A stretch of DNA of 46,548 nucleotides. It comes from Candidatus Saccharibacteria bacterium UBA3225. GTDB lineage: Bacteria > Patescibacteriota > Saccharimonadia > Saccharimonadales > Saccharimonadaceae. Position numbers and translations under genes: made by a program. Positions 1,023 to 31,121 of the stretch are shown one piece after another; positions within the stretch are counted from its first letter, which is position 1, and every line of letters starts with the position of its first letter. The DNA lies in contig DEVX01000078.1 of NCBI GenBank assembly GCA_002363515.1, positions 861 through 47,408 on the forward strand, read 5' to 3'. The notes beneath the pieces are model-generated. The model did not search any database and was not told the origin of the DNA. It worked only from the letters and a program-made list of their open reading frames with translations.

Positions 1023-1769
1023 TTACTTTTTTACCATTTTCGCGAGTAACACATTACGATAATGTTTCGAATCTTTATCGCAAGTAGACAGGACTATAAT
1101 TTTATCATCTGCAGCATAATTCAAGTCTCGAGACTGCTTGGCGAAGGATCGGATTTCTTTAATAATGTCCGCATTATGGCCATTGCGGTTGCCCTCATGA
1201 TTATAGATGCCGGAGCGGTCGATATCTACGACAGAAAAGTCTGATATCTCTAAATCATATACGCCATCCTCAGTGTAGAGTTTGCCAGTTTTATGCTGAT
1301 CGAAATAATCTTTTTGCTCAAAAAGCGAGATGCCGCCAAACATACGTTGCCCATCCATACGGTGACCGTAAATAATCGAGAAATCATCCTTGAAACCATT
1401 ATTGCGATAGTCTAAAAAGATACCGCCGGCTGTAGCGTATTCGCCACGGTAATTGCGAGTTAAGTATTTAGTATTGTTTTTAGACTGTACGACCGGGTAG
1501 TCGATATTAGTGTCGTTTATCTTAACCCAAGCGACTATTTCTGGATTAATCTTTTTAAGCTCAGCCAAATCAACGTCCGTCTCGGCATCTGGCGCCATGC
1601 TGGCAATTTCATCATCCATCTTGGCGCTTATATTTACGGCATGAATATCTAGCAAAGCGTAAAAACCAATCAGAAAAATGAGTAGAAATACCGTTGTAGA
1701 TAAAAGATCTACGGTGCGCTCAATACTGCGACGTATTTTTTCAGACATTTTGTTTTTGCTGTTTGCCAT
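1023..1769 (-). CDS. Class B-type sortase (pilus-associated transpeptidase)
   Basis: A 248-residue membrane-anchored cysteine transpeptidase that would join pilin subunits or anchor them to the cell wall. One N-terminal membrane helix (about residues 21-42) is followed by an extracytoplasmic catalytic domain. The triad is visible: His136 in IIYGHRMDG, Cys230 in VLSTC, and probably Arg238 in DSKHYRNV. The segments INPEIVAWVKINDTNIDYPV and GGIFLDYRN are typical of class B sortases. It is the last gene of the pilus operon, starting 2 nt after the signal-peptidase-like gene. Class B sortases polymerise pili in some Gram-positive islands (for example Streptococcus pyogenes FCT-3). With no other sortase in view and two sorting-signal proteins next door, a pilus role is likely. 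Polymerase versus wall-anchoring activity cannot be decided. Confidence 0.93.
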   Translation of the reverse strand: MANSKNKMSEKIRRSIERTVDLLSTTVFLLIFLIGFYALLDIHAVNISAKMDDEIASMAPDAETDVDLAELKKINPEIVAWVKINDTNIDYPVVQSKNNTKYLTRNYRGEYATAGGIFLDYRNNGFKDDFSIIYGHRMDGQRMFGGISLFEQKDYFDQHKTGKLYTEDGVYDLEISDFSVVDIDRSGIYNHEGNRNGHNADIIKEIRSFAKQSRDLNYAADDKIIVLSTCDKDSKHYRNVLLAKMVKK

Positions 1770-1771
1770 AG

Positions 1772-2287
1772 CTAAATCGACCTCGTGCGAAAGATACTCA
1801 CGATCTTTCCTTTAATTTTTTGTTCGAAGATTGCGCCAAAACTGCGCGAATCATCCATCGCTTCGAGGTTCTCATTCAACAGAAAGTAACTTCCGGTAGG
1901 GACACGGAATGGAAAAGTGATAGAAGGAGCTTCGCCATCGTCGAGGTTGTATACCACCGAATCAGATATGCGCACGCCATTAACATAAAGGCGCCCAGCT
2001 TCATCGATAGTAAGCAAGTCCCCCGAGGAGGCTAATACCGACGATACGTGCATTTCATTATCGCGCTCAAATAACACGACATCGTCTGGGTAAAATGTCT
2101 TGTCCGTACGGGAGAATAATACGAGATCGCCGTCCTCTACGCGATTCGACATCGATACTCCTTCTACTCGCCTAAAGCCAATCAGAACTCCGAATAGTAG
2201 CCACAGCACAAGTGCCAAAACGATTATCTTGACTGCTAAACGAGTCCAGTTTTTGTTCTTTTTTAGAAAAGCTTTCGCCCTGTCCAT
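1772..2287 (-). CDS. Signal peptidase I-like protein of the pilus operon, catalytic Lys apparently missing
   Basis: A 171-residue protein with an N-terminal membrane helix (about 18-38) and the S26 signal peptidase fold. Box B is present with candidate Ser45 (EGVSMSNRVEDGDLV), as is the C-terminal MDDSRSFG box (about 144-151). The box where family I enzymes carry the general-base Lys (usually VKRVIG..GD) reads HVSSVLASSGD here, putting Ser82 at the Lys position; His80 lies two residues earlier. It sits between the major pilin and the sortase, a layout like the SipA signal-peptidase homologue of streptococcal pilus islands, which is reported to have lost catalytic residues and to act as an assembly factor. 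It may therefore be a pilus assembly factor rather than a protease. Start ATG follows a weak GGGG-type ribosome site 15 nt after the pilin stop. Confidence 0.85.
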   Translation of the reverse strand: MDRAKAFLKKNKNWTRLAVKIIVLALVLWLLFGVLIGFRRVEGVSMSNRVEDGDLVLFSRTDKTFYPDDVVLFERDNEMHVSSVLASSGDLLTIDEAGRLYVNGVRISDSVVYNLDDGEAPSITFPFRVPTGSYFLLNENLEAMDDSRSFGAIFEQKIKGKIVSIFRTRSI

Positions 2288-2302
2288 GTCCCCAATTTCC
2301 GA

Positions 2303-3418
2303 CTAAGCCTGCTGCTCTTCGTTGTCTTGTTTCTTGCGAAGGAAGATAAAGAGACCAAAGGCACCGATAATTAAGAGCATGAGATAGAACCAGAAATTAG
2401 TAATAACGCCAGTAAGCGGGCTAGCTTGCTTATTGTTTTCGATATTTGTAACATTGTTTTTACTAAAACAACCTTCACCGTCTTCGTTATTTTCATCGCA
2501 AGAAGTATTGCTGACGGCTACTGCGGTTTTCGTTGTGGTGCTCCCATTAGTACTGTCAAATTTTTCAATATATTCATCGCCCGAGTTGGTCTTAGTTATA
2601 GTGTATTTTGCACCGGCTGGGAGCTGATATGCGCCGCCATTATAACCAACATGGACAGTATCGCCATGCTTGAGCTTAATTGTTGCCGGAGTGCCAGCAG
2701 TGACGCTTGAAGCGCTGCCAGTACAGGCAGAAGTGCCAGTCGCTGGGACAATATCGATTGCAAATGAACCCGCTACGCCATTTTCGGCTGAGATATCAAT
2801 CGTATATTCAAAGCATTCTTCCTTTTCAGCCATGTTGCCAGTGGTGGTAGCAGTAGCTTCAATGTAGGTATAAGTAGTACCACTCGTCCAGACAGCTTCA
2901 GTAACCTTTGAGCTATTGGTGTTGTTTTTAATTGACACGGTAGCTAAATAGACATTATTGTTCGGAACATTATTCGCATCAACCTGATAGCGCACCGAGA
3001 TTTGAATGTCGTAACTATTCGTGCTATCGACAGGATAGTTTGTGCTATTGCTGGACGCAGTCTCGGTGACAGTGTAAATATAATCACCAACCTTGCTAAA
3101 ATCGACGCTAGCTAAATCAATTACTGCGGTTTGCGTGGCAGTACCGCTCGTTGGCGTAACGCCATTGAAGGCTATTGTGACACTTGATGGTACTGTTGTA
3201 GCTGTGCCCGGTTGAGTGTAGTTACTCTTTGGTGAGATAGTGTAAGTATAGGTGTTTGTGACTGGGTTCGTCACGCCCGTCACGTTTCTCCTGAGCGTGA
3301 CCTGGTTATTGGTTCCGTCATATGTTGCTGTATTGGCGAAAACGCCAGCCACAGGAAAAATTGTCGAAACAGCTAGAGCGATAGCTGCTACGCCTGCGGC
3401 AAATGAAAGTTTTTTCAT
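2303..3418 (-). CDS. Major pilin-like surface protein (Spy0128/FctA type) with SPLTG sorting signal
   Basis: A 371-residue secreted protein. It has a signal peptide (about 1-28), a first beta domain (about 30-170) with a DYIYTVTET strand and YDIQISVRY motif typical of Spy0128/FctA isopeptide pilins, and a second domain (about 190-325) opening with TGNMAEKEE and continuing with KHGDTVHV and LPAGAKYTITK, as in wall-anchored pilin domains. The C-terminus is a sorting signal: SPLTG (333-337), a membrane helix (about 341-360) and an RKKQ tail. The motif departs from LPXTG. Four cysteines in the second domain (ECF, SAC, TSC, GCF) could form disulfides. A good AGGGAG ribosome site precedes the ATG. 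It lies between the tip protein and the SipA-like gene. Family assignment is by pattern; the intramolecular isopeptide bonds are inferred. Confidence 0.85.
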   Translation of the reverse strand: MKKLSFAAGVAAIALAVSTIFPVAGVFANTATYDGTNNQVTLRRNVTGVTNPVTNTYTYTISPKSNYTQPGTATTVPSSVTIAFNGVTPTSGTATQTAVIDLASVDFSKVGDYIYTVTETASSNSTNYPVDSTNSYDIQISVRYQVDANNVPNNNVYLATVSIKNNTNSSKVTEAVWTSGTTYTYIEATATTTGNMAEKEECFEYTIDISAENGVAGSFAIDIVPATGTSACTGSASSVTAGTPATIKLKHGDTVHVGYNGGAYQLPAGAKYTITKTNSGDEYIEKFDSTNGSTTTKTAVAVSNTSCDENNEDGEGCFSKNNVTNIENNKQASPLTGVITNFWFYLMLLIIGAFGLFIFLRKKQDNEEQQA

Positions 3419-3433
3419 TTCTCCCTTTCCTTA

Positions 3434-5164
3434 TTATTGTTTTGATAAACTATAACACCCCCCCAATACCCCAACAGCGCCTATCGCCGAGAGTATATAA
3501 TAAAGTGTTATACTATTGGTATTAACCCCGGTTAAGACCGGGACATCTTGCCAGCTTTGGACATTAAAGCTAGTGCTGGCGATATAATCTTGAGTAGTGT
3601 CGAGAAAATAATAATTGTCGGCGCTGGCGCTAGTAAGCCTTGCCGTATTGGTGAGTATTTCAGTATTGTTCGTGATAATGTCGTATTCAACGTATAGCGT
3701 AATTGCGCCGCCGGCTGGAATTGTAGAAATAGTTGCTTTTGTTTCATTGGTAGCATTCACTACATAGTCATTATGAGCAATAAACTTTGCACCAATTAAC
3801 TGTTCCTCAATTTCAACGTTACTGATTGGATAAGCTTCTGGGTTAGAAACGGTAATCAAAAAGTCAACCGTGTCACCAAAGCGATAGGCGTTTTGCGGAT
3901 TCGCAATTGTTTTGTTAATTATCGGCGCAAAAGTGCCATTGTAACGCTCCCAACTGCCGGCGATGGTAACGTTCTGAGACGGCATCGTAAAGGTTCCGCT
4001 TATACTTTGTCCGTTCATTTGCCAGCCCAAGAAGCGATAACCGGTTGCGGTTGGTTCTGGGGCGACCGTTACAGTGTCGCCATCATCATAAGTGGCAGTC
4101 GCCGGCAGCAACGAGCTTGCATTTGGCGGCTGAACACTGCCAGTAAATTGGTAAGTAACATTATGGAATTTTGGATGATAAACATAGGTCACCTCGGTGT
4201 CTTGATTAATAATACCGGTCGCCTGGCCAATCTTAAGCTCAGACGTATAGTTCGGATCAGATATTGGCGAAGCTGTATAAGTATCGCCTTCATTATGAGT
4301 CGTAACCACATCAGCACTGAACGGAGTAGATTCGTCTTCCTGGAGGTGGTGAACGGTAAGGTTATAGGTTGGAATAGTTTTTACGTTCTCGAACGAGACG
4401 CCATCGGTCGTGCCTGGGACCAGGTTGCCATAATAAACATCAGAGATACTGCCGCCAAAGATACCACCCGTGTGCCGGATGGACACATTTCCTTCGCTAC
4501 CAGATATATCAGTCAGAACGCCGCCCAAAAACCAATAATTCATCGAGATATTGGCCGGAAGACCATTTTCATAAGAACCAATCGTTGCGTTATTATTTCC
4601 AATCATACTTCTAACGGCGCTAGTTAGTTCTGTTCGTTTAACACCAGTTGGATACGAGTCAAGTGTCCAGACGTAATAGTTATCACCGCTTCTAAATACA
4701 ATAAAATTAACATCTCCAAGATTATGCGTAGTATTAGTGTTAGTATATGTCGATGTATTCCTGGTCGATTCTAGAATTGTAACCGCCGAAATGCTTGGCG
4801 AAAGATTATTTGATGTGATTGAGTAATCTGAAACCGAATCCTCTACGATTGTGTAATTCGCATTGTATGGGACGTTGTCAAAAACCCCAACCCACTTATT
4901 GCTATCTGACGGATCGAGATTAGCCGAAGTGAGGGTTAATGTTGACACGGTAGTGTTCCCATTCATCAAGCGTAGCGTAACACTACTTGGACGAGTAGTA
5001 TCACTCCGATCGGACCAAGATACAGTCACTGGAATATCCATTCCAGTCTGCGCGAAAACCGCATTAACAATAAAACTGGTAGCCAATAAGCTGAGTATGG
5101 CTGACGTAATTAATATTGTGAGTATCCTCTTAATGCCAGTTTTCACCTCCATTGTGAAAACCAT
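3434..5164 (-). CDS. Large cell-wall-anchored pilus tip/adhesin-like protein (Cna-B, MucBP-like, InlB-like and DUF11-like domains)
   Basis: About 576 residues from the ATG at 5164, chosen because GGGAG lies just upstream; an in-frame ATG at 5152 and a TTG at 5179 are alternatives, and all keep the signal peptide. In order: a Cna-B-like domain near the N-terminus (IPVTVSWSDRSDTTRPSSVT), an unrecognised middle, a MucBP-like segment (LTVHHLQEDESTPFS, about 270-330), an InlB-type repeat (GYRFLGWQMNGQ, about 385-415), a DUF11-like domain (NKTIANPQNAYRFGDTVDF, about 415-520), then PVLTG, a membrane helix and a very short SLSKQ tail. It is the first gene of the pilus operon, 15 nt before the pilin. 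The single copy, larger size and adhesive domains suggest a tip or minor pilin; this is inference. The tail has only one Lys, weak for a sorting signal. Confidence 0.85.
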   Translation of the reverse strand: MVFTMEVKTGIKRILTILITSAILSLLATSFIVNAVFAQTGMDIPVTVSWSDRSDTTRPSSVTLRLMNGNTTVSTLTLTSANLDPSDSNKWVGVFDNVPYNANYTIVEDSVSDYSITSNNLSPSISAVTILESTRNTSTYTNTNTTHNLGDVNFIVFRSGDNYYVWTLDSYPTGVKRTELTSAVRSMIGNNNATIGSYENGLPANISMNYWFLGGVLTDISGSEGNVSIRHTGGIFGGSISDVYYGNLVPGTTDGVSFENVKTIPTYNLTVHHLQEDESTPFSADVVTTHNEGDTYTASPISDPNYTSELKIGQATGIINQDTEVTYVYHPKFHNVTYQFTGSVQPPNASSLLPATATYDDGDTVTVAPEPTATGYRFLGWQMNGQSISGTFTMPSQNVTIAGSWERYNGTFAPIINKTIANPQNAYRFGDTVDFLITVSNPEAYPISNVEIEEQLIGAKFIAHNDYVVNATNETKATISTIPAGGAITLYVEYDIITNNTEILTNTARLTSASADNYYFLDTTQDYIASTSFNVQSWQDVPVLTGVNTNSITLYYILSAIGAVGVLGGCYSLSKQ

Positions 5165-5199
5165 ATAACTCCCAAACAATCCATTCCACTTGTGTTTTT

Positions 5200-5208
5200 A
5201 TTGTAGCA
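5200..5208 (-). promoter_or_regulatory. Extended -10 promoter of the pilus operon
   Basis: On the minus strand: TGC followed by TACAAT. The predicted start near 5193 gives a leader of about 30 nt before the tip-protein ATG at 5164. It is divergent from the promoter at 5255-5263. Confidence 0.6.
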
Positions 5209-5254
5209 GAAATAAAGCTAAAATGACACATTGTTTTTATATAAAGATGGAAAA

Positions 5255-5263
5255 TGCTATCAT
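5255..5263 (+). promoter_or_regulatory. Extended -10 promoter of the small membrane export protein
   Basis: TGC followed by TATCAT; transcription would begin near 5270. A GAGGTGA ribosome site sits just before the ATG at 5284. Confidence 0.55.
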
Positions 5264-5283
5264 ATATTAAGTTGAGGTGAGCT

Positions 5284-5757
5284 ATGTTGCTGAAATTATT
5301 CTTAGTTACATTAGTGGCGATGTTTCCACTTGTTGAATTACGTGGCGCAATACCAATTGCGGCAGGTATGAACTTGCCAGTTTTTCTTTCCCTGCTCGCG
5401 GCAATGCTCGGAAATATGATTCCCATGCCATTTATCTTTACTTTTGGGCGTGAGTTATTAGAGAAAGGGGCGAAAGTTAAATATGAGCCTATTCGCAATT
5501 TCTGCAAATGGTGCATCAAAAAGGGTAACAATGGTAGCAAAAAACTTTTAGCAAAAACTAAAGATAGCATTTATATTGCCCTACTTCTATTTGTAGGCAT
5601 CCCACTTCCTGGAACAGGAGCTTGGACTGGCACTCTGGCGGCAACTTTCTTAAACTTAGACTTCAAGAAATCCATGATAGCGGTAGGTTGCGGCACTCTT
5701 CTAGCCGGGCTTATTATGCTAGCAATATCATTTGGCGTGTTAGACTTGCTGTTCTGA
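5284..5757 (+). CDS. Small multidrug export family (COG2426-like) membrane protein
   Basis: A 157-residue hydrophobic protein with about four membrane segments. The opening LVAMFPLVELRGAIPIAAGM and the internal VGIPLPGTGAWTGTLAA with the repeated G-A-hydrophobic pattern match the COG2426/Sm_multidrug_ex family (PF06695). Transport substrate is unknown and the family name should not be read as proof of drug export. A clear GAGGTGA ribosome site lies 5-6 nt before the ATG. It is divergent from the pilus operon and 73 nt ahead of a GT2 gene that has its own promoter, so co-transcription is optional. Confidence 0.85.
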   Translation: MLLKLFLVTLVAMFPLVELRGAIPIAAGMNLPVFLSLLAAMLGNMIPMPFIFTFGRELLEKGAKVKYEPIRNFCKWCIKKGNNGSKKLLAKTKDSIYIALLLFVGIPLPGTGAWTGTLAATFLNLDFKKSMIAVGCGTLLAGLIMLAISFGVLDLLF

Positions 5758-5796
5758 CGATGGCCGGTTATTCCTTTTCAGTATCTATAACAATTG

Positions 5797-5805
5797 TGAT
5801 ATCAT
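5797..5805 (+). promoter_or_regulatory. Extended -10 promoter of the GT2 gene
   Basis: TGA followed by TATCAT, about 25 nt before the GTG start at 5831, leaving room for the GAGG ribosome site at about 5820-5823. Confidence 0.5.
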
Positions 5806-5830
5806 TTAAGATAAATAGTGAGGTAAGAAG

Positions 5831-6874
5831 GTGAAAGTGACCAATAAGACTCCAAAATTACTGTCTATAGCTGTGCCCTGCTATAACTCGCAGGAATATA
5901 TGAAAAAGTGTATCCACTCCTTACTCCCCGCCGGCGACGAAATTGAGATTTTAATTATTGATGACGGTTCAAGTGATGATACGCCAAAAATCGCCGATGA
6001 TTTTATGCATAAATACCCCGGAATAGTTCGGGCAATTCACCAAAAAAATGGCGGACACGGCGCTGCGGTTAATACCGGCATCCGAAAAGCCACTGGGGTC
6101 TATTTTAAAGTGGTCGATAGCGACGACTGGGTTAATCCAGATGCTTTAGTGAAGCTGCTTAAGAGTATTAAAGAACTTGAAGAAAATAATACGCCAGTTG
6201 ATATGATAATTGCGAATTTTATCTACGATAAAGTCGGCGAAAAGCATAAAAAGACTATGCGCTTCAATCGCGTCTTCCCCAAAAACACCATTTTTGGTTG
6301 GGACGAGATGGGTCATATGACTCAGACTCAATATATGCTAATGCATAATATCTACTATCGGACACAGCTATTGCGCGACTGTGGGCTCAAGTTGCCTCGA
6401 CATACTTTTTATGTAGACAATATTTTTGCCTTTCAGCCTTTGTTGTCGGTAGAAAAAATGTATTATGTAGATGTTGACTTATATCACTATTTTATTGGCC
6501 GCTCGGACCAGTCCGTAAATGAAGAGATAATGCTCGGAAGAATCGATCAGCAGATTAAGGTAAATAAGATTATGGTCGATATAATAGCAAATCAGGATTT
6601 TAGCAACAAGAATTCGCGTCTTCGGAAATATATGATTATATATCTCGATAAGGTAACGACTGCCACGTCGGCACTCCTCTCATTAGATGGCTCAAAAGAG
6701 GCCGTCCGAAAGAAGAAGGCTTTTTGGCGTTATGTTAAAAGTCATGATGCGAAATTATTTTACAGGCTGCGCAAGACTCCACTAGGCATGGCCACGAACT
6801 TACCAGGAAAAAGCGGGCGCATGATTACTAAAGTAGGATACAAGACAGCCCGCAAAATTGTTGGTTTTAACTAA
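5831..6874 (+). CDS. Family 2 glycosyltransferase
   Basis: A 347-residue GT-A fold enzyme expected to move a sugar from a nucleotide donor to a surface glycan or lipid acceptor. The N-terminus has the GT2 hallmarks: LSIAVPCYNSQEYMKKCI (first strand and helix), LIIDDGSSDDTP (nucleotide-binding Asp residues), GGHGAAVNTGI, and the metal-binding VVDSDDWVNPD near residue 98. The C-terminal third lacks clear membrane helices. It begins with GTG after a GAGG ribosome site; the next in-frame candidates lack one. Its stop abuts the nrdG stop on the opposite strand with no bases between, so the two transcripts converge without an obvious terminator. The acceptor is unknown. Confidence 0.92.
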   Translation: MKVTNKTPKLLSIAVPCYNSQEYMKKCIHSLLPAGDEIEILIIDDGSSDDTPKIADDFMHKYPGIVRAIHQKNGGHGAAVNTGIRKATGVYFKVVDSDDWVNPDALVKLLKSIKELEENNTPVDMIIANFIYDKVGEKHKKTMRFNRVFPKNTIFGWDEMGHMTQTQYMLMHNIYYRTQLLRDCGLKLPRHTFYVDNIFAFQPLLSVEKMYYVDVDLYHYFIGRSDQSVNEEIMLGRIDQQIKVNKIMVDIIANQDFSNKNSRLRKYMIIYLDKVTTATSALLSLDGSKEAVRKKKAFWRYVKSHDAKLFYRLRKTPLGMATNLPGKSGRMITKVGYKTARKIVGFN

Positions 6875-7417
6875 TTATTCTTGACTAATGATTTTACCAC
6901 GGTCGAGATGCAGAATGCGTTGATTTTTGCTACCGCGAAACTTTAGCGTAAGATCACGTTGCGATTGAATAAAAGGCCCATCAATGAGCGCGTCGAGTTC
7001 TTCGACGAACTTCCAGGCGACAGAATCGCGCGGTATTTGTTCGTAGACGAGACCAGTAAAAGACCAGACATTCCAGCCAAGTTCTTCTTTGCAGAACTTA
7101 GCAATTTCTAGACACGCTTTGGCTTGCAAAAGCGGTTCACCACCGCAAAAAGTAATACCGCTCTGCCCCTTTAGTTTGCGAAGTTCGTCCTTAACTTTTT
7201 CGATTTTCACAACTGCACCAACATCTTTTTCGGCCCATGTTTCTGGATTTTGACAGCCGGGGCAATGTTGGCGACATCCTTGTGTCCACAAAACGGCGCG
7301 GAGGCCCGGACCGTTCACAATTGAGTCGTGCTCGAGGTCGCCAGAAAGAACGATGCAACCATCTGGCACGTCCATTTGCGGTTCGCAAAGAATATTAGTC
7401 TTCTTTTTTGTTACCAT
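6875..7417 (-). CDS. nrdG: Anaerobic ribonucleoside-triphosphate reductase activating protein
   Basis: A 180-residue radical-SAM activase that installs the glycyl radical on NrdD using S-adenosylmethionine and a [4Fe-4S] cluster. The cluster motif CxxxCxxC is at Cys48, Cys52 and Cys55 (GCRQHCPGCQNPETW), preceded by DSIVNGPGLRAVLWTQG, which is typical of NrdG. GITFCGGEPLLQ matches the SAM-binding GGE motif. Length is usual for the family. GAGGAA precedes the ATG. It lies 63 nt after nrdD on the same strand; the spacer holds a GC-rich hairpin that could tune the NrdG to NrdD ratio. Confidence 0.97.
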   Translation of the reverse strand: MVTKKKTNILCEPQMDVPDGCIVLSGDLEHDSIVNGPGLRAVLWTQGCRQHCPGCQNPETWAEKDVGAVVKIEKVKDELRKLKGQSGITFCGGEPLLQAKACLEIAKFCKEELGWNVWSFTGLVYEQIPRDSVAWKFVEELDALIDGPFIQSQRDLTLKFRGSKNQRILHLDRGKIISQE

Positions 7418-7440
7418 AATACTTCCTCATTTAAGCCCAA

Positions 7441-7466
7441 AATGCCGCGTTTTTGGGCGCGGCAAT
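7441..7466 (-). promoter_or_regulatory. GC-rich hairpin between nrdD and nrdG (partial terminator or mRNA stabiliser)
   Basis: Plus-strand arms TGCCGCG (7443-7449) and CGCGGCA (7458-7464) pair perfectly around an 8-nt loop. On the transcribed minus strand the hairpin is followed only by TTTT then GGG, so a full terminator is doubtful. A leaky terminator or processing/stability element between nrdD and nrdG is the reasonable reading. Confidence 0.55.
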
Positions 7467-7480
7467 TGGGGGATTTGCTT

Positions 7481-9829
7481 TTATTCTTTACCGAGAGCAG
7501 CTTTTAATTCAGCTTTTTCGGCTTCGCGTTTTACCTTAGTGGCCTGATCGTATTGCCCCACCGACACGTTATGTTTCACGCGGGCGGCTTCTTCGGCCTT
7601 TTTGCCATCATTCCAACGCTCGAGTGAGCCCACTAGGTAACCAGTAATGCGGCGAAGGCGCTCAAAGCCAAACTCGCCATCAGTTTCGCGACGGCCACAA
7701 CTTGGACATACATCGCCTTCAATGATTCCGGAGAAGCCACATACTGGATCGCGGTCGACTGGGTGGTTTACGGAACCATAGCCAATGCCAGCTTCTTTCA
7801 TATGGCGAATAACTGCTTCGAAAGCTTCAATATTGTCTGAAGGATCGCCATCCATCTCGATATAGGTAATATGACCAGCATTGCAAAGATTATGATATGG
7901 AGCTTCAATATCAATCTTATCGAAAGCTGAGATTGGATAATAGACTGGCACATGGAAGGAATTAGTATAGAATTCACGATCAGTCACGCCTTTAATTTTG
8001 CCAAACTCTTTGCGATCCATGCGGGTAAAACGCCCAGCAAGACCTTCGGCCGGGGTAGCAAGAAGCGAGTAATTCAAATGGCGCTTTTTGGTCATTTCGT
8101 CACAGAACTCACGCATATGACCCACGATGTCTAGGCCTATTTCCTGAGCTTCGGCGCTTTCGCCGTGATGCTTACCAATCATTGCAACCAATGTTTCGGC
8201 TAGCCCTATGAAGCCGATGGATAAAGTACCGTGCTTAATAACGTCGCGAAGCCTATCGTTTGGCTTGAGTTTGTCGCTACCAACCCAGTTACCCTGCCCC
8301 ATTAGGAATGGGAAATTTTTAACCTTTTGATTGCCCTGGAATTCGAAGCGTTGGTAAAGCTGATCGGCGCAGAGTTGAAGTTTTTCGTCTAGCTCTTTGT
8401 AGAAACCGTCCCAATCTGCCTCTTTGCGCTCGCCTAGGCAAATGCCATGCTTGATGCCAATACGCACGAGATTTATCGATGTAAAGGAAAGGTTGCCGCG
8501 ACCAGAAACGTGGCCATCAGTTTCAGGGAAGCAAGAGCCAATTACACGCGTGCGGCAGCCCATAGTAGCAATCTCGGTATCCGGATCACCTGGCTTGTAA
8601 TACTGGAGATTAAATGGCGCGTCAATGAAGGTAAAGTTCGGGAAGAGACGCTTGGCGGAGACTTCCATCGCACGCTTGAAGAGATCGTAATTTGGGTCCT
8701 CTGGGTTATAGTTAACGCCTTCCTTTACTTTGAAGATAGAAATTGGGAAAATTGGCGTTTCATGATGGCCGAGACCATTCATAGTGGCTTCTAGTAGCAT
8801 CTTGGAAACTAGGCGACCTTCTGGGCTAGTGTCGGTGCCGAAATTAATTGAAGTAAATGGAACCTGCGCACCGGCGCGACTATGCATAGTGTTAAGATTG
8901 TGAACGAAGCCCTCCATGGCTTGCAGAGTTTGGTGCTCGGTATCTTTGTGGGCATCTTCGATGACTTTTTCTGGGACTTTAAGCTTTTTGAGTTTCTTGT
9001 CGTCGCCAAGGGTGATGGTATCTTTAATCTCAATGTTTAAGTTCTTGCCGGTGAAATCGTTGTATTTTTCAAGGTTAGCTTTGAGACTTTTGCGAAACGT
9101 CTTATTGACACTTGGCGCCAAAGCGTAGTCGAAGTTCGGAATTGACTGTCCGCCGTGCTGCTCGTTCTGGTTCGCTTGAAGAATGATTGCGGCTAATGCA
9201 GCGGCTGTACCGATCGATTGTGGCGTACGAAGGTAACCATGGCCGGTATTAAAACCGCGTTCAAAGAACTTTAGAGGGTCAGTCTGGCAGCAAGTCAATG
9301 TTCCGGTTGCCATAAAATCCAGATCATGAATATGGATATCGCCATTGTCATGAGCGGCAGCAAATTCTGGTTTCAGAAGTAGCAACTTTGCATATTCCTT
9401 TGAGCCTTCAGAACCAAAGCGAAGCATTTTGCCCATTGCGCAGTCGCCATCAATATTACCATTCTCGCGCTTTACGGATGAGTCCTCGGAGGAATCGACA
9501 ACTGAAATAACACCATAAGTCTGCATAAGCTTGCTTTTTGCGGCGCGAATTCTTGTTCGCTCAGCACGATATTCGATATAGGCTTTTGCGGTGCGTTTAA
9601 AGGCCGACTCCATCAATACTCTTTCAACTATATCTTGAATTTGTTCAACTGTCGGAATGCGGCTTTTGATTTCTTCTTGCGCTACGCGAAGAACTTTTTC
9701 GGCAATATTCTGAGCACGATCATGGCCAAATTCGCCAGTGGCACTGCCCGCTTTTGCGATTGCTTCTGTAATTTTTTCTGGTTTGAAAGCGGTTACCTTT
9801 CCGTCGCGCTTTCGGATTGATTTGAACAT
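7481..9829 (-). CDS. nrdD: Anaerobic (class III) ribonucleoside-triphosphate reductase
   Basis: A 782-residue enzyme that reduces ribonucleoside triphosphates to deoxy forms without oxygen, using a glycyl radical made by NrdG. In order: an N-terminal ATP-cone (about 1-95, beginning MFKSIRKRDGKVTAFKPEKI), the large catalytic barrel (for example MGCRTRVIGSCFPETDG and FIGLAETLVAMIG), a C-terminal zinc site (DPVCGFSG and DVCPSCGRRE) and the radical loop RITGYLVGSLERWNDGKKAE with the radical Gly near residue 730. All main parts are present and the length is normal. GGAGG stands about 6 nt before the ATG. Upstream lie NrdR-type operator pairs. It is the only ribonucleotide reductase seen here. Confidence 0.98.
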   Translation of the reverse strand: MFKSIRKRDGKVTAFKPEKITEAIAKAGSATGEFGHDRAQNIAEKVLRVAQEEIKSRIPTVEQIQDIVERVLMESAFKRTAKAYIEYRAERTRIRAAKSKLMQTYGVISVVDSSEDSSVKRENGNIDGDCAMGKMLRFGSEGSKEYAKLLLLKPEFAAAHDNGDIHIHDLDFMATGTLTCCQTDPLKFFERGFNTGHGYLRTPQSIGTAAALAAIILQANQNEQHGGQSIPNFDYALAPSVNKTFRKSLKANLEKYNDFTGKNLNIEIKDTITLGDDKKLKKLKVPEKVIEDAHKDTEHQTLQAMEGFVHNLNTMHSRAGAQVPFTSINFGTDTSPEGRLVSKMLLEATMNGLGHHETPIFPISIFKVKEGVNYNPEDPNYDLFKRAMEVSAKRLFPNFTFIDAPFNLQYYKPGDPDTEIATMGCRTRVIGSCFPETDGHVSGRGNLSFTSINLVRIGIKHGICLGERKEADWDGFYKELDEKLQLCADQLYQRFEFQGNQKVKNFPFLMGQGNWVGSDKLKPNDRLRDVIKHGTLSIGFIGLAETLVAMIGKHHGESAEAQEIGLDIVGHMREFCDEMTKKRHLNYSLLATPAEGLAGRFTRMDRKEFGKIKGVTDREFYTNSFHVPVYYPISAFDKIDIEAPYHNLCNAGHITYIEMDGDPSDNIEAFEAVIRHMKEAGIGYGSVNHPVDRDPVCGFSGIIEGDVCPSCGRRETDGEFGFERLRRITGYLVGSLERWNDGKKAEEAARVKHNVSVGQYDQATKVKREAEKAELKAALGKE

Positions 9830-9877
9830 TTTTACCTCCGTAGTTCTGAATCAATTGTGAATTTTGTCTGTCCCGAA

Positions 9878-9926
9878 ACACCATATTTAGCGTTTGTTGA
9901 GATAATGGTAACGCTATATGTAGCGT
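9878..9926. promoter_or_regulatory. NrdR-box pair proximal to nrdD
   Basis: Two sites match the 16-bp NrdR consensus acaCwAtATaTwGtgt: ACACCATATTTAGCGT at 9878-9893 and ACGCTATATGTAGCGT at 9911-9926. Their starts are 33 bp apart, about three helical turns, the usual phasing of paired NrdR boxes. They lie 49-97 bp upstream of the nrdD ATG. No nrdR gene is in the window. Repression of nrdDG when dNTP pools are full is the expected role. Confidence 0.8.
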
Positions 9927-9985
9927 TTTTGCAATAGAAAATGTAAATAATACAACGCTAACAGATTCAGTTTTTTGCCGCCTAC

Positions 9986-10034
9986 ACGCTATATGTAGTG
10001 TTTCACGAGCAGAATGGGACGCTATTTTTGGTTA
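9986..10034. promoter_or_regulatory. Second NrdR-box pair, proximal to the murA-like gene
   Basis: ACGCTATATGTAGTGT at 9986-10001 is a strong NrdR-type site. A degraded partner, ACGCTATTTTTGGTTA at 10019-10034, lies exactly 33 bp further on, repeating the phasing of the first pair; the two pairs are offset by 108 bp. The first half is well supported, the weak partner less so. The rest of the intergenic stretch 9830-10103 holds the promoter at 10089 and nothing else recognised. Confidence 0.65.
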
Positions 10035-10088
10035 TTTTTACAACATTCTGCTAATAAGAACGGGAATATACCGCTATTATGCGTCCCG

Positions 10089-10097
10089 TGATATACT
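10089..10097 (+). promoter_or_regulatory. Extended -10 promoter giving a leaderless mRNA for the XRE-MurA gene
   Basis: TGA then TATACT, followed by exactly 6 nt and the ATG at 10104. The usual start site distance would place the first transcribed base on the A of the ATG. No ribosome site is present, consistent with a leaderless message. Confidence 0.6.
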
Positions 10098-10103
10098 ATC
10101 TGT

Positions 10104-11645
10104 ATGAAAAGGCAAGCTGACTACATGGTTGAGATAGGAGCAATTATCGCAACTGCTCGTACCCGCCAAAATATGACTCAGGCTGAATTGGCCGAGAAAA
10201 TCGGAACAAGCCAGTCTGCAATTAATAGAATTGAGCATGGAAAACAGAACGCCTCGCTTGAAATAATTAGTAAAATTAGCCATGCTCTGCGCACGCAAAT
10301 CGTTACCGTCAACGACACTGCTTCGAAGAGCTATCAAATAAAAGGCGGCAAGGAGTTGCATGGTTCAATCGAGATAAACACATCCAAGAATGCCGCCGTG
10401 GGGTTGCTCTGTGCAGCGCTTTTGAATGAGCAGAAGACAACCCTAGTTCATTTAGCTCACATCGAGGAGGTTTATCGTATCATAGAGGTGCTCGAGTCGA
10501 TCGGGGTGCGAACGGAATGGATTAACAATGGGCGCGACTTGGAGATAATTCCGCCCAAAAAGCTTGACCTAGGAAACCTTGACATAGAAGCCGCACGACG
10601 CACTCGTACTGTGATTATGTTTATGGGGCCGCTATTGCACCGTTTTAAGGAATTTCGCTTGCCATACGCTGGGGGTTGTTCTCTTGGTTCTAGAACCGTT
10701 GAGCCACATTTGCATGCTTTAAAGAATTTTGGGCTAGACGTTGACGCTAAAGTTAATCCAGGATTTTACGAAGCTACTGTTCGCAACATAAAAATTGAAG
10801 ACAAGAAAATCGTACTCACAGAGCGCGGCGATACGGTTACCGAAAACGCCGTCATGGCGGCGGCATTATATCCAGGCAAAACCACTATTGTAGGAGCTAG
10901 CCCAAACTATATGGTCCAGGACGTATGTTTCTTCCTGCAAAAGTTGGGCATACAAATTGACGGTGTCGGCACAACGAACCTTACAATACACGGCGTAAAG
11001 AAAATTAGTAAACAAATAGAATATGCGCCTGGCGAAGATCCAATCGAAGCGATGAGTTTCATTGCGGCGGGAATCGCAACTAAGTCTGAAATAGAGATTA
11101 AGCGAGTGCCAATTGAGTTCCTAGAGATTGAATTGGAAGTATTGCGTAGCATGGGCCAGAAAATGCGTATTAGTGATGAATACTTGGCCGAAAATGGAAG
11201 GACGCGCCTAGTCGACATAAAGCTAAAGAAGTCCAACCTTAAAGCGCCAATAGACAAAATTCACCCAATGCCCTTCCCGGGCTTGAATATTGATAGCTTG
11301 CCATTTTTCTCTTTAATTGCCGCAACGGCAGAAGGCAGAACATTAATACATGACTGGGTGTTCGAAAATCGCGCGATTTATTCGACAGAATTATCTAACC
11401 TAAATGCAAAAGTTGAGCTTTTAGACGCACATCGTATCTTTGTGAATGGTCCAACCAATTGGCGCCCTGCAGAAATGATGGCTCCGCCAGCACTTCGCCC
11501 TGCAGTAGTAATTATGTTAGCAATGCTTGCTGCACCTGGCACTTCAATTTTGCGCAATGTGTATTCAATTGCGCGTGGCTATGAGGATTTCGCAAATCGT
11601 TTGCGCAAGTTGGGCGCAAATATAGAGCCGCTGTCTGACATCTAG
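10104..11645 (+). CDS. XRE helix-turn-helix domain fused to UDP-N-acetylglucosamine 1-carboxyvinyltransferase (MurA family)
   Basis: 513 residues against about 420 for ordinary MurA. Residues 1-65 form an XRE/Cro-type helix-turn-helix (MTQAELAEKIGTSQSAINRIEHGKQ). From about residue 77 the rest is a MurA-type enolpyruvyl transferase, which adds enolpyruvate from PEP to UDP-GlcNAc, the first committed peptidoglycan step. Expected active-site residues are visible: Lys95-Asn96 (TSKNAA), Cys192 in the AGGCSLGSR loop (equivalent of E. coli Cys115), Arg197, an Asp in PGLNIDSLPFF, and Arg in PALRPAVV. The two parts are in one uninterrupted frame, so this is a real fusion. The gene stands alone between nrdDG and gatC. 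The DNA-binding half may sense enzyme state or regulate wall genes; that is inference. Confidence 0.93.
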   Translation: MKRQADYMVEIGAIIATARTRQNMTQAELAEKIGTSQSAINRIEHGKQNASLEIISKISHALRTQIVTVNDTASKSYQIKGGKELHGSIEINTSKNAAVGLLCAALLNEQKTTLVHLAHIEEVYRIIEVLESIGVRTEWINNGRDLEIIPPKKLDLGNLDIEAARRTRTVIMFMGPLLHRFKEFRLPYAGGCSLGSRTVEPHLHALKNFGLDVDAKVNPGFYEATVRNIKIEDKKIVLTERGDTVTENAVMAAALYPGKTTIVGASPNYMVQDVCFFLQKLGIQIDGVGTTNLTIHGVKKISKQIEYAPGEDPIEAMSFIAAGIATKSEIEIKRVPIEFLEIELEVLRSMGQKMRISDEYLAENGRTRLVDIKLKKSNLKAPIDKIHPMPFPGLNIDSLPFFSLIAATAEGRTLIHDWVFENRAIYSTELSNLNAKVELLDAHRIFVNGPTNWRPAEMMAPPALRPAVVIMLAMLAAPGTSILRNVYSIARGYEDFANRLRKLGANIEPLSDI

Positions 11646-11665
11646 TTTGTTAGTTCTCTGTTATC

Positions 11666-11674
11666 TGTTATAAT
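11666..11674 (+). promoter_or_regulatory. Extended -10 promoter, leaderless start of the gatCAB operon
   Basis: TGT followed by consensus TATAAT, then 6 nt and the gatC ATG at 11681. A TTGTTA at 11647-11652 could serve as -35 with 16-nt spacing. The predicted first base is the A of ATG. Confidence 0.7.
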
Positions 11675-11680
11675 TACCGT

Positions 11681-11968
11681 ATGGCTATTACTAGAAAAGA
11701 TGTCTTGCATTTGGCAGAATTGTCAAATCTGCGTCTAAGCGAAGATCAGATTGAGCCACTAATAAAAGATCTCGACAATATCGTCGGTTATATTTCCCAG
11801 CTCGACGAGTTGGATACCGATGGCGTCGAGCCTACTTATCAGTGTTTCGACATGCAGAATGTTTGGCGCGAAGACGTAATTGAAGAATTTGAGGCAAGTC
11901 GCGAAGACTTGCTAAACCTTACGGTCGAAAGTGAAGATCATCAGATAAAGGTGCCGAAAGTATTATGA
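11681..11968 (+). CDS. gatC: Asp-tRNA(Asn)/Glu-tRNA(Gln) amidotransferase subunit C
   Basis: A 95-residue small subunit that stabilises the GatA-GatB complex converting misacylated Glu-tRNA(Gln) or Asp-tRNA(Asn) to the amide form. The family signature is clear: HLAELSNLRLSEDQIEPL, ILDNIVGYISQLDELDTDGVEPTY-type segment and the C-terminal REDLL. Length is typical. It leads a tight operon (gatC, gatA, a membrane protein, gatB, galU and two small genes) and overlaps gatA by ATGA. No Shine-Dalgarno site precedes its ATG, which lies 6 nt after a perfect -10, so it should be translated leaderless. Confidence 0.96.
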   Translation: MAITRKDVLHLAELSNLRLSEDQIEPLIKDLDNIVGYISQLDELDTDGVEPTYQCFDMQNVWREDVIEEFEASREDLLNLTVESEDHQIKVPKVL

Positions 11969-13353
11969 TTATTGCAGACAAAAATACTAAAGCCGTAGAC
12001 TTAGTCCGCGCGGCGCTTGATAAAGCAAAAGAATACGAGGACTATCATTGCTTCATTTCAATGAACGAAGCGCGTGCACTAGACCGCGCACGCGAAATCG
12101 ACGAAAGAATCGCAAAAGGCGAGAAAGTCGGTCGTTTAGCGGGAGTCCCGTACGCAATTAAGGACAACTACTTAAGTCCAGAAGGCGTCACAACGGCCGC
12201 TTCGCGTATGCTCGATAATTTCCCTTCACCAATCACCGCGACTGCGGTTGCAAAGCTTGAGGCAGAAGGCGCAATCATGATTGGTCGCGCCAACCTTGAT
12301 TCCTACGCACATGGCTCTAGCACAGAGAACTCATATTTTGGACCAACACTTAATGCTCACGACAAGGAGCGCGTCGCTGGAGGGTCTAGTGGCGGATCAG
12401 CGGCGGCGGTCGCTTTAGGCATCGTCCCCTTCGCACTAGGGTCAGATACTGGCGGATCAATTCGCCAGCCAGCTAGCTATAACGGTGTTTGGGGCATGAA
12501 ACCAACCTATGGAACCGTAAGCCGCTACGGCGTGGTCGCAATGGCCTCGTCGCTCGACACAATGGGATGTATCGCAAATAATGCCGAAGATGTTGATCTC
12601 ATTATGGGTATTATTGCTGGCAAAGATCCAAAAGATTCCACTACTCTAGACGATTTTTGGAATCGCGACCTCGATGACGCAAAACCAAAGAAGAAAAAGA
12701 TTGGTATTATTAAGGATTTCTTAAAAGATGGCGTTGATCCAGAAGTTAGCGAAACTGTCTTGAACTATGCCAATAAAATGAAAAAAGCCGGTTACGAAGT
12801 CGAAGAAATCAGTATGCCTATTATGAAATATGGCCTAGCGATTTATTACATTATTCAACCGGCCGAGGTAGCGTCAAACCTAAGTCGCTATGACGGTATT
12901 CGCTACGGACATCGCGCCGCTGAAATAACTGATTTGGATAGTATTTATGGCAAAACGCGTGACGAAGGTTTTATGCCAGAAAATAAACGTCGCATTATGA
13001 TCGGGAACTTCGTACTCAGCTCTGGCTTCTTTGATGCTTATTATTTGAAGGCACAAAAAGCGCGTACATTGTTAATTAATGCATATAATGAAGCATTCGA
13101 AAAATATGATGCCCTTCTCTGTGCGGTAGCACCAGCTCCAGCATTCAAGCTTGGCGAAAAAACCGATGACCCACTACAGATGTATATGGAAGATATGATG
13201 AGCGTCTTGGCAAACCTCGCAGGATTACCAGCTATAGCAATACCGGCAGGCGAGTCGAAGTCCGGCTTACCTATTGGCGTGCAATTAATCGGCCCGCGCA
13301 AAAGCGACCAAGTTCTACTTAATATCGCTAAAAGCGTAGAGGAGAATGCTTAA
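11965..13353 (+). CDS. gatA: Asp-tRNA(Asn)/Glu-tRNA(Gln) amidotransferase subunit A
   Basis: A 462-residue amidase-signature enzyme that releases ammonia from glutamine and passes it to GatB. The Ser-cisSer-Lys machinery is visible: Lys in [10 protein letters not shown] (near 68), the glycine/serine-rich block [14 protein letters not shown] and [12 protein letters not shown] with the nucleophilic Ser. Family landmarks [22 protein letters not shown] and [11 protein letters not shown] are present. Length is slightly short but complete. Start ATG overlaps the gatC stop; its TAA overlaps the next ATG (TAATG), indicating translational coupling through the operon. Confidence 0.98.
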
Positions 13354-26794: not shown

Positions 26795-28309
26795 TTATGA
26801 GCGATCAGCGGCGTTTTTGCAAGACGCCCCATTCGTATAGGTAACAGCTTGCGTAGCACTATCCCAGGCAGTCTCACTGTGGAGGCAGTTGCGCGTCACA
26901 TAGAAATCTTTCTTCACGTAGTCTTCGTTAGAATCGGGGTCATTCACTGCTAAGGCATAGTTAGCAATTGGGAAGTAGGTGTCGACTAACTCAATGCGAG
27001 CTTCTATGCGGCGGAATAGGTCGTTTGCACGACCAGTAGCATCCACAGTTGGCTGTACGTAAGCAAACTCTACTGCTTTGCAGCCAGAATCGTCGGTGTT
27101 CTTCCTGTCTACATATATCGTATCAGAGTCGTTTATGCAGTTACGTAGCTCGACATTAACTTCAGTTTCTGGCTCACCATACGGCAGATTTAAAACTAAG
27201 AAGAAAGTTGTGTAGTTACGCGCGTCACCCTCACCAGCAACGACCGATTTGCGAGGACGCGGGATTGGGATATCCGCATTGCAGGCATATCCACTTGCGA
27301 CATCTACATTATCTCGAAGAATACAATGTACATCAAGCGGCGTATTCTGTGACTTTAGGGCCGATGTCGCAAAGACGGAGGCTGAAGTTGTACCAATATG
27401 GTTGGAGTATTGCTCTTTTGTAATACCATAAAGGTTTTGAGTGGTCGGGCGAAGTGTAATTGAGCCCCTATTAGAACGATAGATACTGCCATCTTTCTCG
27501 GCAGAATAGAACTGACTCAGTTTAAAGCTCGTTGCCGTTTGGATTAAGGTGGCCTGAATCGTTGATGGTACCGATGGCTTATTTGTGAAAGTATTTTGAT
27601 AATTTGAAATATTACTCAGGAATTTATTGTTTGACTTTAGGGTACCTTTCATCTCTGGATCACTATTAAATGCATGAAATTCGGGCTTAATGTTGCCAGA
27701 GTTATTGCTCGCAGTAGTAAGATCCTTGCGACTAAACCAGCTCAACACAATGCGATTTACACTGTTAGTAGCCTCCACCGATTCGGTACGAATCGGTACC
27801 ATCTTGGTTGGATAATTCTTCGTTAGAGTAGTGATATAATTCCTGCTTTTCTGAGATATTTTAACGCAGGTATATGCCTGGTCAAATTCTCTTGCGGAAC
27901 CAGTAACGTTATTACTATCACTCTTTGTCTGAATTAGTGTTTCGTGGTTTTCCGTATTGTAGCCAAGAACCTTACTGATAATGTCACAGTCTTGAGAGGT
28001 TGCTTCGGCATTATTAGTAAAAGCATCAACATACTTCCTACAGTCGATAGATACGCCATTCACTACAAGCGAATTGCCGCCGTTATTGACGCAGTTTTGA
28101 TAACGAAGCAGAACAATCTTCGCATCCTCGATGCCGGCTAGTGCGGAGTTGTAGGCTGACTGAGAAAGACTATAGTTGGTCGTACGCCCACTCTCGGATA
28201 ACATCAGTCGAATAAAGCTAAGCGCAATGATGCTCAAAAGAGTGGCCGTAAAGATGACGACATAGATTGCGGCGGCGCCTTTTTTAGTTTTGTTTTGAAT
28301 ATTCGACAT
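26795..28309 (-). CDS. PilX/GspK-like minor pilin-type protein
   Basis: 504 residues from the ATG at 28309, which follows GAGAGG and lies 1 nt after the upstream stop (TAACATG); a longer frame start has no such support. The N-terminus KTKKGAAAIYVVIFTATLLSI is a short basic leader and a prepilin-like helix (about 12-33), then SQSAYNSALAGIEDAKIVLL, similar to PilX/GspK proteins. The usual Glu at mature position 5 is absent. The remaining 450 residues are a large outer domain with scattered Cys pairs (for example DVHCILRD and YACNADI) and no recognised fold. It is the last gene of a four-gene prepilin operon and is probably a minor or tip subunit of a type IV-like pilus; the ligand is unknown. 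Confidence 0.8.
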   Translation of the reverse strand: MSNIQNKTKKGAAAIYVVIFTATLLSIIALSFIRLMLSESGRTTNYSLSQSAYNSALAGIEDAKIVLLRYQNCVNNGGNSLVVNGVSIDCRKYVDAFTNNAEATSQDCDIISKVLGYNTENHETLIQTKSDSNNVTGSAREFDQAYTCVKISQKSRNYITTLTKNYPTKMVPIRTESVEATNSVNRIVLSWFSRKDLTTASNNSGNIKPEFHAFNSDPEMKGTLKSNNKFLSNISNYQNTFTNKPSVPSTIQATLIQTATSFKLSQFYSAEKDGSIYRSNRGSITLRPTTQNLYGITKEQYSNHIGTTSASVFATSALKSQNTPLDVHCILRDNVDVASGYACNADIPIPRPRKSVVAGEGDARNYTTFFLVLNLPYGEPETEVNVELRNCINDSDTIYVDRKNTDDSGCKAVEFAYVQPTVDATGRANDLFRRIEARIELVDTYFPIANYALAVNDPDSNEDYVKKDFYVTRNCLHSETAWDSATQAVTYTNGASCKNAADRS

Positions 28310-28310
28310 G

Positions 28311-29177
28311 TTACCTCTCTCCATATTGATCCACGCTACTCGTCTCCCCTGTGGCGCGTACCGCAAAATTAAATTTATTAACTGCGCAATAGTTAAAGTC
28401 TTGGTCGACCGCTTCCACCTCGGAGTTATACATTTGTTCCGTACCGGTGCAATAATCTCCATTCGTCAAAACATTCACACCGCCACGCATGGTCGCCAGA
28501 ATAAACGATCCAGAGTAGAATATTTGACCAGTTTTCGCGTTTTGTGTAGCAGGCAACACTACAAAGTCGTAAAGCGCCAGGTCGGATTCGTCGTCGGAAA
28601 TCAGGCTTACTATATCTCTACTATCGATATCATTTGTAATGTGTGTAGTTTTAAGAACATCACTATTCGCATTGACGCGCTCACAAGCTACACGATCAGT
28701 ATCTGGGAAACGCGCAAGTTTGTACACTTTACCCTCAATAGTAAACAGGTTGTTTTTATTGTTCGGGTTTTTGCGGTATTGTTCGATAGCTGGGGCGGTA
28801 TTCCAAACATATGAATACGACCCCGTACAGAAGACGCCACCGATTTGGACTTTCTTATTGTTGGTTACGCTGGAAGACGATATCTTTTCATTGTAGTAAT
28901 TGCGATAAACTTTCTTGATATCATTCCAACGGATATCGTTACTGCCAGATGATGGAACTGGGTTAATATTATCGACGATTGGAGATCCGCCGACAGAACG
29001 CGAAAGGTCATTTAAGATGTCTCGCCCAGTAGCATTAATGGCGCGAAGAGCAAGACCTTTACGATAGATTTCCAAGATTCGCATCGTTAACGTGACAATA
29101 CCCATCAACATTACCGACAATACTGTCATTGCAAGCAAGAATTCGATAATAGTGAAGGCTTTCTTATGCTTTTTCAT
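28311..29177 (-). CDS. Type IV prepilin-like protein (PilW/GspJ-like)
   Basis: 288 residues. Basic leader MKKHKKA, then the prepilin motif FTIIEFLLAMTVLSVMLMG: Ala at -1 in place of the common Gly, Phe at +1 and Glu at +5. The helix is followed by a large C-terminal domain. It would be cut and methylated by a PilD-type peptidase and built into a type IV-like pilus. TAATG overlap with the preceding gene and 1 nt to the next stress operon coupling. The Ala at -1 is tolerated in some prepilins. Order and size suggest a PilW/GspJ-type minor subunit. Confidence 0.83.
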   Translation of the reverse strand: MKKHKKAFTIIEFLLAMTVLSVMLMGIVTLTMRILEIYRKGLALRAINATGRDILNDLSRSVGGSPIVDNINPVPSSGSNDIRWNDIKKVYRNYYNEKISSSSVTNNKKVQIGGVFCTGSYSYVWNTAPAIEQYRKNPNNKNNLFTIEGKVYKLARFPDTDRVACERVNANSDVLKTTHITNDIDSRDIVSLISDDESDLALYDFVVLPATQNAKTGQIFYSGSFILATMRGGVNVLTNGDYCTGTEQMYNSEVEAVDQDFNYCAVNKFNFAVRATGETSSVDQYGER

Positions 29178-30010
29178 TATTCCAATACCTCCGGGTTGTA
29201 TAGACGTACAATTGTAGTAATAGTACTAGGCGCAATCGAGCCAACGCTATGCCAACAGGTACGAATGTAAAAATCGAAGTAGTTTGAGCGCATTGGGTCT
29301 TTGTCATTGTCTCCTACAGCTATCACAAAGACGCCTTCAGCGCGAGCGACGCGGTTATATATTTTCTTCTCAGTGAGAGCGCCTTCACCATTATTTTCGC
29401 TAGCACCCGCATCTACACTACGCGCGCCCGAGACAGTATCTTTGGCCTTTTTGTACACAATACGCGGATACACGACTGGGGCAGTGAGAACCCTTCTATG
29501 GTCGACATCAAGAGAATCTATACCAACGATAATTTCAGGAATAAGATCGGAGTAAGAGTCGCCGCCATAAGTAGCATTGTTGCCAGAGTCTGGTAGAATC
29601 ATGCGCGTATTAAGTGCAAAAGCATTATAAAACTCAACCATGCCGTTCGTTCGGTACGCTTCGCCACAAGTTTCGATATTGTTGATATCGAATTTCACCT
29701 CAGTGCTATTATTGACGTGATCTTCAAGATTCCTTGATTTAATTGCAACCCTGCGCAACGCATCCCACAATCTTCTAAATTGACTGCTGTCTCTATCTAA
29801 CTGGCGTTCCGCAACATAACTCTGATGAATGTAGCGAAGCGCTTCAGCCTGCGAGTCAATCTCATTGCGCGCCATAGTGTACTCTAGGGTACGTTGAGCA
29901 TTATTAATGCCACTATTCATGAGGTTTACCGTAATAATTGCCAAAACAGCAAATACTGCCAAGGCCATCATAACTTCAATAATAGTATCGCCATGCTTTT
30001 TTATTGACAT
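29177..30010 (-). CDS. Type IV prepilin-like protein (PilV/GspI-like)
   Basis: 277 residues. Leader MSIKKHG, then DTIIEVMMALAVFAVLAIITVNLM with Gly at -1, Asp at +1 and Glu at +5. Asp at +1 is unusual, since Phe or Met is common. The membrane helix is followed by QRTLEYTMARNEIDSQAEALRY, as in PilV/GspI. It overlaps the upstream gene by 10 nt and the downstream one by 1 nt, so the operon is tightly coupled. A minor pilin that could prime pilus assembly or DNA uptake. Confidence 0.82.
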   Translation of the reverse strand: MSIKKHGDTIIEVMMALAVFAVLAIITVNLMNSGINNAQRTLEYTMARNEIDSQAEALRYIHQSYVAERQLDRDSSQFRRLWDALRRVAIKSRNLEDHVNNSTEVKFDINNIETCGEAYRTNGMVEFYNAFALNTRMILPDSGNNATYGGDSYSDLIPEIIVGIDSLDVDHRRVLTAPVVYPRIVYKKAKDTVSGARSVDAGASENNGEGALTEKKIYNRVARAEGVFVIAVGDNDKDPMRSNYFDFYIRTCWHSVGSIAPSTITTIVRLYNPEVLE

Positions 30011-31044: not shown

Positions 31045-31050
31045 AAGCAT

Positions 31051-31056
31051 ATTATA
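31051..31056 (-). promoter_or_regulatory. -10 element giving a leaderless prepilin operon mRNA
   Basis: Minus-strand TATAAT, 6 nt before the ATG at 31044. No -35 and no extended TG is apparent, so activation by a regulator is possible. A perfect 8-bp dyad lies about 70 bp upstream. Confidence 0.55.
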
Positions 31057-31121
31057 CATTATCATTGGCAAAAATGGGATTTTTTGTTTTTAGAAAACGT
31101 TTTACGACAATCAAAAAGTAT

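Follow-up and report, generated by a model that had tools for sequence, protein, structure and literature searches.

A probable SipA-dependent class B sortase pilus island in a Saccharibacterial genome, and in-frame UGA codons in a paralogous island class

Saccharibacteria are tiny bacteria that are thought to live on other bacteria. In a 46,548-nucleotide stretch of the draft genome of Candidatus Saccharibacteria bacterium UBA3225 (contig DEVX01000078.1, positions 861 to 47,408; hereafter the window), four near-contiguous genes on the minus strand (1023-5164), all with intact reading frames, probably act as a single unit in building a covalent surface pilus (probability roughly 85%). They encode a tip protein, a backbone pilin, a SipA-like protein and a class B sortase. 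Features of the island, in window positions, are:

1023-1769, minus: class B sortase, 248 residues, predicted pilin polymerase (TIGR03064; motifs GHRM, LSTCD and YRNV)
1080-1082, minus: codon of the predicted catalytic Cys230 (LSTCD) of the sortase
1772-2287, minus: SipA-like signal-peptidase homolog, 171 residues, predicted inactive assembly factor (PDB 4n31/4k8w)
2303-3418, minus: backbone pilin, 371 residues, with two Ig-like domains of Spy0128/FctA type
2408-2422, minus: pilin sorting motif SPLTG; a hydrophobic stretch and a charged tail come next (to 2306)
2723-2725, minus: codon of pilin Cys232 (alignment A1)
2813-2815, minus: codon of pilin Cys202, proposed disulfide partner of Cys232
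2906-2908, minus: codon of pilin Lys171, aligned with the Spy0128 acceptor Lys161
3434-5164, minus: tip or ancillary protein with Cna_B, MucBP, InlB-B-like and DUF11 domains and a sorting signal
3527-3544, minus: tip sorting motif VPVLTG
5200-5229, minus: weak promoter-like site (extended -10; consensus match only) ahead of the tip gene

Profile matches over cut-off were obtained for the class B sortase (TIGR03064, 181.9 bits; cut-off 153.75), for Peptidase_S26 in the SipA-like protein (65.9 bits; cut-off 22.9), for DUF7601 (41.3 bits; cut-off 27) and, in the tip protein, for Cna_B, MucBP, Flg_new, Flg_new_2 and DUF11. The sortase carries the usual motifs with His136 (GHRM), Cys230 (LSTCD) and Arg238 (YRNV), which we take to fill the catalytic roles. 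The closest PDB matches of the signal-peptidase homolog are SipA/LepA (4n31/4k8w; E 3.5e-20 and 6.2e-20); it keeps Ser45 and has Ser82 at the Lys position, leaving it without a Ser-Lys dyad. Across 60 aligned SipA-like proteins this position holds Ser in 53 and Lys in 7, with the full Ser-Lys pair in 6. SipA of Streptococcus pyogenes has Asp (Asp48) and Gly at the two dyad sites, where the protein studied here retains Ser45, and that SipA is called essential for pilus polymerization (available portion of PMC4049620).

Modeling indicates that the backbone is a two-domain pilin of the Spy0128/FctA fold. In the pilin alignment (A1, 60 rows) the acceptor column (Lys171) holds Lys in 49 rows, and all 56 pilins taken from loci have a Lys somewhere within residues 168-173. 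T336 and G337 of the sorting signal region are invariant (60/60), and the LPXTG_anchor profile matches at 16.2 bits (cut-off 15.9). Cys202 and Cys232 are both present in 45 of the 60 rows; from this pattern we propose that they form a disulfide. The tip motif P-V-[L/V]-T-G is found in 36 of 40 rows of the tip alignment (A3), the other four having gaps there; the structure model of the tip protein reached pLDDT 84.2 and pTM 0.43. An earlier note on this DNA had proposed a sortase-pilus island of these four same-strand genes, and the profile matches, PDB matches and pilin model back it.

The unit could work as follows, its chemistry in vivo, disulfide, anchoring step and target being the parts that we infer. 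Tip protein and backbone pilin, which have signal-like N-terminal stretches, would be exported by Sec. The membrane-bound class B sortase would cleave the Thr-Gly bond of the LTG sorting signals and couple the Thr to Lys171 in the following backbone subunit, first tip to backbone and later backbone to backbone, with the dyad-less SipA-like protein acting as a non-proteolytic assembly factor. The C202-C232 disulfide would stabilize the shaft, where streptococcal pilins use a Lys-Asn isopeptide bond, and the sandwich domains of the tip are the probable contact sites, a bacterial neighbor or host being the likeliest partner.

The genome itself (G000; 915,271 bases in 88 contigs, 86% complete, 0.5% contaminated) holds three islands, in the window, on contig C75 and on contig C69 (the last truncated by the end of the contig); PF04203 matches it six times, five of them over cut-off. 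Searching 61 genomes (this one, 36 genus-mates and 24 of other families) at E ≤ 0.001, we found relatives of the window pilin in 34, namely the genome itself and 33 of the 36 genus-mates, and in none of the 24 from other families. Of 45 genus genomes, 42 matched the C75 pilin (E ≤ 1e-10) and 43 matched TIGR03064 (E ≤ 0.001); among the other genomes of the family sample, TIGR03064 matched 16 of 250. The gene order and the key residues recur across genomes. Islands of one class, type A, have unlike neighbors in G020, G021 and G027 and thus move or are shuffled. G020 and G021, both Candidatus Saccharibacteria, are among the genus-mates, a kinship that places the host in the Candidate Phyla Radiation (CPR), as supposed earlier. 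Of 8 Saccharibacterial loci, three are recorded from yak rumen, sheep rumen or horse feces, the others being listed without a habitat.

Several observations weigh against the pilus reading. The island includes no basal or anchor pilin (the genome outside the island was not scanned for one). Eleven of the 60 rows of A1 lack Lys at the exact acceptor column. The isopeptide residues of both pilin domains are gone: in domain 1, Spy0128 Lys36 is replaced by Arg44 and Asn168 by Ser179 (R44-E119-S179), and in domain 2, Lys179 by Ala190 and Glu258 by Lys276 (A190-K276-N328). VKOR, which re-oxidizes MdbA in Actinomyces according to the accessible part of the literature, gave no match in this 86% complete genome. 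Finally, the island was lost from a close relative (L034, isolate RUI495) by a 3.5 kb deletion between the matches to window 1311 and 4809, with truncated tip and sortase ends remaining (L034 7640-8300). The earlier note had named models without pilin fold and isopeptide triads as a sign against a pilus; the fold is kept, which favors one, and the triads are missing, which does not. Since the fold, the acceptor Lys and the sorting signals are kept despite the missing triads, we do not count the pilus reading as refuted.

One alternative is that the sortase, like other enzymes of class B, only attaches the two surface proteins to peptidoglycan and forms no polymer. A class B sortase by itself does not prove polymerization, the best solved relatives of this one include anchoring SrtB enzymes (e.g., an NPQTN-specific sortase B), and a basal pilin is lacking in the island; however, the SipA-like protein, T-antigen-fold backbone and tip protein co-occur as in the polymerizing set of FCT-2/3/4, and Lys lies at or beside the acceptor position in all 56 locus pilins, so that we regard anchoring alone as unlikely. 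Slightly less likely still is an island that is decaying or silent in this genome: the deletion-truncated relative is close (94.1% and 92.1% identity in two matched blocks), but the four window frames are intact, and order and key residues recur. Origin from a Gram-positive contaminant, a concern raised earlier on account of binning, is very unlikely because pilin relatives occur in 42 of 45 genus genomes; the parts do look like Firmicute islands, the draft is split into 88 contigs, one pilin relative (P0045, 40% identity) is named Bacilli bacterium and the SipA matches include Slackia exigua (35%), but all other named relatives are Ca. Saccharibacteria (pilin 5, SipA 1, tip 3), the flank at window 4809-12000 is colinear in Saccharibacterial L034 and GC content is 38-50% throughout the window.

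A second island class, type C, is represented in the same genome on C75 (L041 2700-4778), where pilin and sortase both contain in-frame UGA. The loci with this pattern are:

Type C, UGA pattern: L041, L055, L056, L064-L069, L076-L078, L153, L155, L157, L158, L160, L164, L171

For the sortases, 48 of 51 frames were aligned (L040, L169 and L172 were dropped), with island types assigned by us. Of 33 type C frames, 18 hold 21 UGA codons between them; the 15 frames of other types hold none (Fisher p = 2e-4 counted by gene and 0.025 counted by Trp codon). For 17 of the 21, the same alignment column shows Trp in another sequence (2000 random draws gave a mean of 2.8 and at most 9), most clearly in an otherwise invariant Trp column with 43 UGG and 5 UGA; five of the 21 fall among the first ten codons and may precede a later start. 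In the pilin, UGA is fixed in one clade; 8 genomes (G000, G001, G005, G007, G020, G021, G027, G067) have it at the same codon immediately behind the signal peptide, always followed by A. G000, G005 and G027 are ~95% alike; the other pairs compared (G027 not included) share 47-68% identity at proportions of synonymous differences (pS) of 0.67-0.80, so that this UGA has outlasted synonymous saturation. Other pilins have varied residues opposite it (Ser, Thr, Gln, Phe and more), with Trp seen only for L069, in 1 of its 39 alignments, and Trp at the pilin UGA is thus extrapolated from the sortases.

A scan of the fetched loci (818 frames, 168 with UGA and a cross-genome match) found homology-spanned UGA almost confined to type C sortases and pilins. 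A short L153 gene at the SipA position has one opposite Trp in 3 of 3 matches; exceptions are pre-start sites in three type A sortases and one site each in L049 and L066. Outside the pilus genes, related frames of 442-444 residues (L055 10082-11416, L075 204-1532) contain two in-frame UGAs each. A Trp-rich protein, matched in 37 of 45 genomes searched, shows three rows with UGA and seven with TAG (two TAG in G028); in all of these the match reaches query residue 520 of 522, and we take them for terminal stops. In G008, G023 and G068 a type C pilin adjoins tRNA-Ala with no sortase match within the fetched stretch, so part of the class may be eroding.

We tentatively propose, at a little short of even odds, that the type C pilus of this genus is gated by UGA: full pilin and/or sortase would be made only when UGA is read as Trp, the bypass setting pilus amount or timing, with UGA remaining a stop elsewhere, gained at several sortase Trp codons and held at one pilin codon after the signal peptide. 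The reader is perhaps the ordinary tRNA-Trp(CCA); the tRNAs listed, an incomplete list, include none with a UCA anticodon. A genome-wide UGA=Trp code is rejected, as release factor 2 (RF2, prfB) is kept and UGA is in use as a stop: RF2 is over cut-off in 56 of the 61 genomes, this one included (below it in G006, G016, G020 and G044, no match in G059; G006, G016 and G020 bear UGA), and 4 of 41 window open reading frames of at least 120 residues end in UGA. A selenoprotein reading is likewise rejected, SelB being over cut-off in 0 of 45 genomes (sub-cut-off matches in 45/45, as in most controls). Two tRNA-Cys(GCA) genes are present in the genome, one unusually long at 92 nt (L121 199-290, C86) and one at L109 1413-1486 (C4).

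CS3 pili of Escherichia coli reportedly involve bypass of an amber codon, in work ascribed to Jalajakumari (1989). Pilus production would there depend on stop-codon bypass as proposed for type C, but with an amber codon and another kind of pilus, whereas here UGA stands at Trp in sortase pili. In the literature found, there was no report of gene-class-specific, recurrent UGA-for-Trp in a pilus system. UGA as Trp is also inferred, genome-wide, in family JAKLIH01 of the Patescibacteriota (Minisyncoccia; PMC13092985, available part), a CPR lineage of another class, whereas here UGA is confined to one island class and most genomes keep RF2. Conserved in-frame stops are argued to be widespread in bacteria (Belinky et al., PMC7918605, as far as its available text goes). 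With the type C paralogs, the decoding of UGA in particular bacterial genes can be put to a direct test.

Elsewhere in the window, a gene at 3-830 matches sigma-70 region 4 below threshold and may be a regulator; L034, L043 and L046 carry relatives of it close to the island or to what remains of it. The window also encodes an N_methyl pseudopilin-like protein (28311-29177), with neighbors lacking a Pfam match (26795 to 31071), and a ComEC-like protein (33530-34879). On C86 of the same genome, a 2294-residue protein (L083 2427-9311) has 11 FctA (Spy0128-like) stretches and one DUF7601 domain.

Earlier work had shown sortases to be common in CPR bacteria (Meheust 2019, PMC6744442; also PMC4736985, PMC6851277, PMC7143001), and in the available portions of these papers the pili discussed are type IV pili, with no sortase-polymerized pilus or SipA described. 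Our literature search, with subscription papers and preprints outside its scope, found no sortase-assembled pilus described for Saccharibacteria or CPR, which is not proof of absence; the same holds for the accessible parts of PMC8672522, PMC12369343, PMC5220378 and PMC12857230. A covalent sortase-built fiber across a Saccharibacterial genus would be a second candidate attachment organ besides type IV pili and a genetic handle on episymbiosis, and its backbone would be a natural experiment in which a disulfide takes the place of isopeptide stabilization.

We file the island with the SipA-dependent class B sortase pili (FCT-2/3/4, PI-2 kind). It has a class B sortase, a dyad-less type I signal-peptidase homolog, a two-domain Spy0128-fold backbone, Lys at the K161 position and an xTG sorting signal; alignment with Spy0128 found no intramolecular isopeptide triads in the backbone, which in our view are usual for such pili but not a defining trait. 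S. pneumoniae/oralis pilus islet 2 comprises PitA, SipA, PitB and SrtG; PitA is a VWA protein, whereas here VWA proteins are seen beside paralogous islands (L048, L049, L056) and not at the window island. At L056 5878-7683, a tip protein with VWA and GBS104-like Ig domains adjoins a type C island. Actinobacterial pilins (FimP, SpaA; MdbA) are likewise disulfide-stabilized (PMC3485203, available part), as proposed here, but FimP has three domains, of which M and C retain isopeptide bonds. The likeness to streptococcal FCT islands pointed out in the earlier note holds for sortase, SipA, FctA-type backbone and tip. S. pyogenes FCT-2/3/4 (Cpa, SipA/LepA, FctA, class B SrtC, FctB) share with the island a class B sortase, a SipA-type inactive signal peptidase, a tip protein, LPXTG-like signals and a two-domain FctA-fold backbone with the K161 position; the island, from another phylum, differs in lacking the basal FctB, in its Cna_B/MucBP/DUF11 tip, and in having lost the isopeptide triads and gained a Cys pair.
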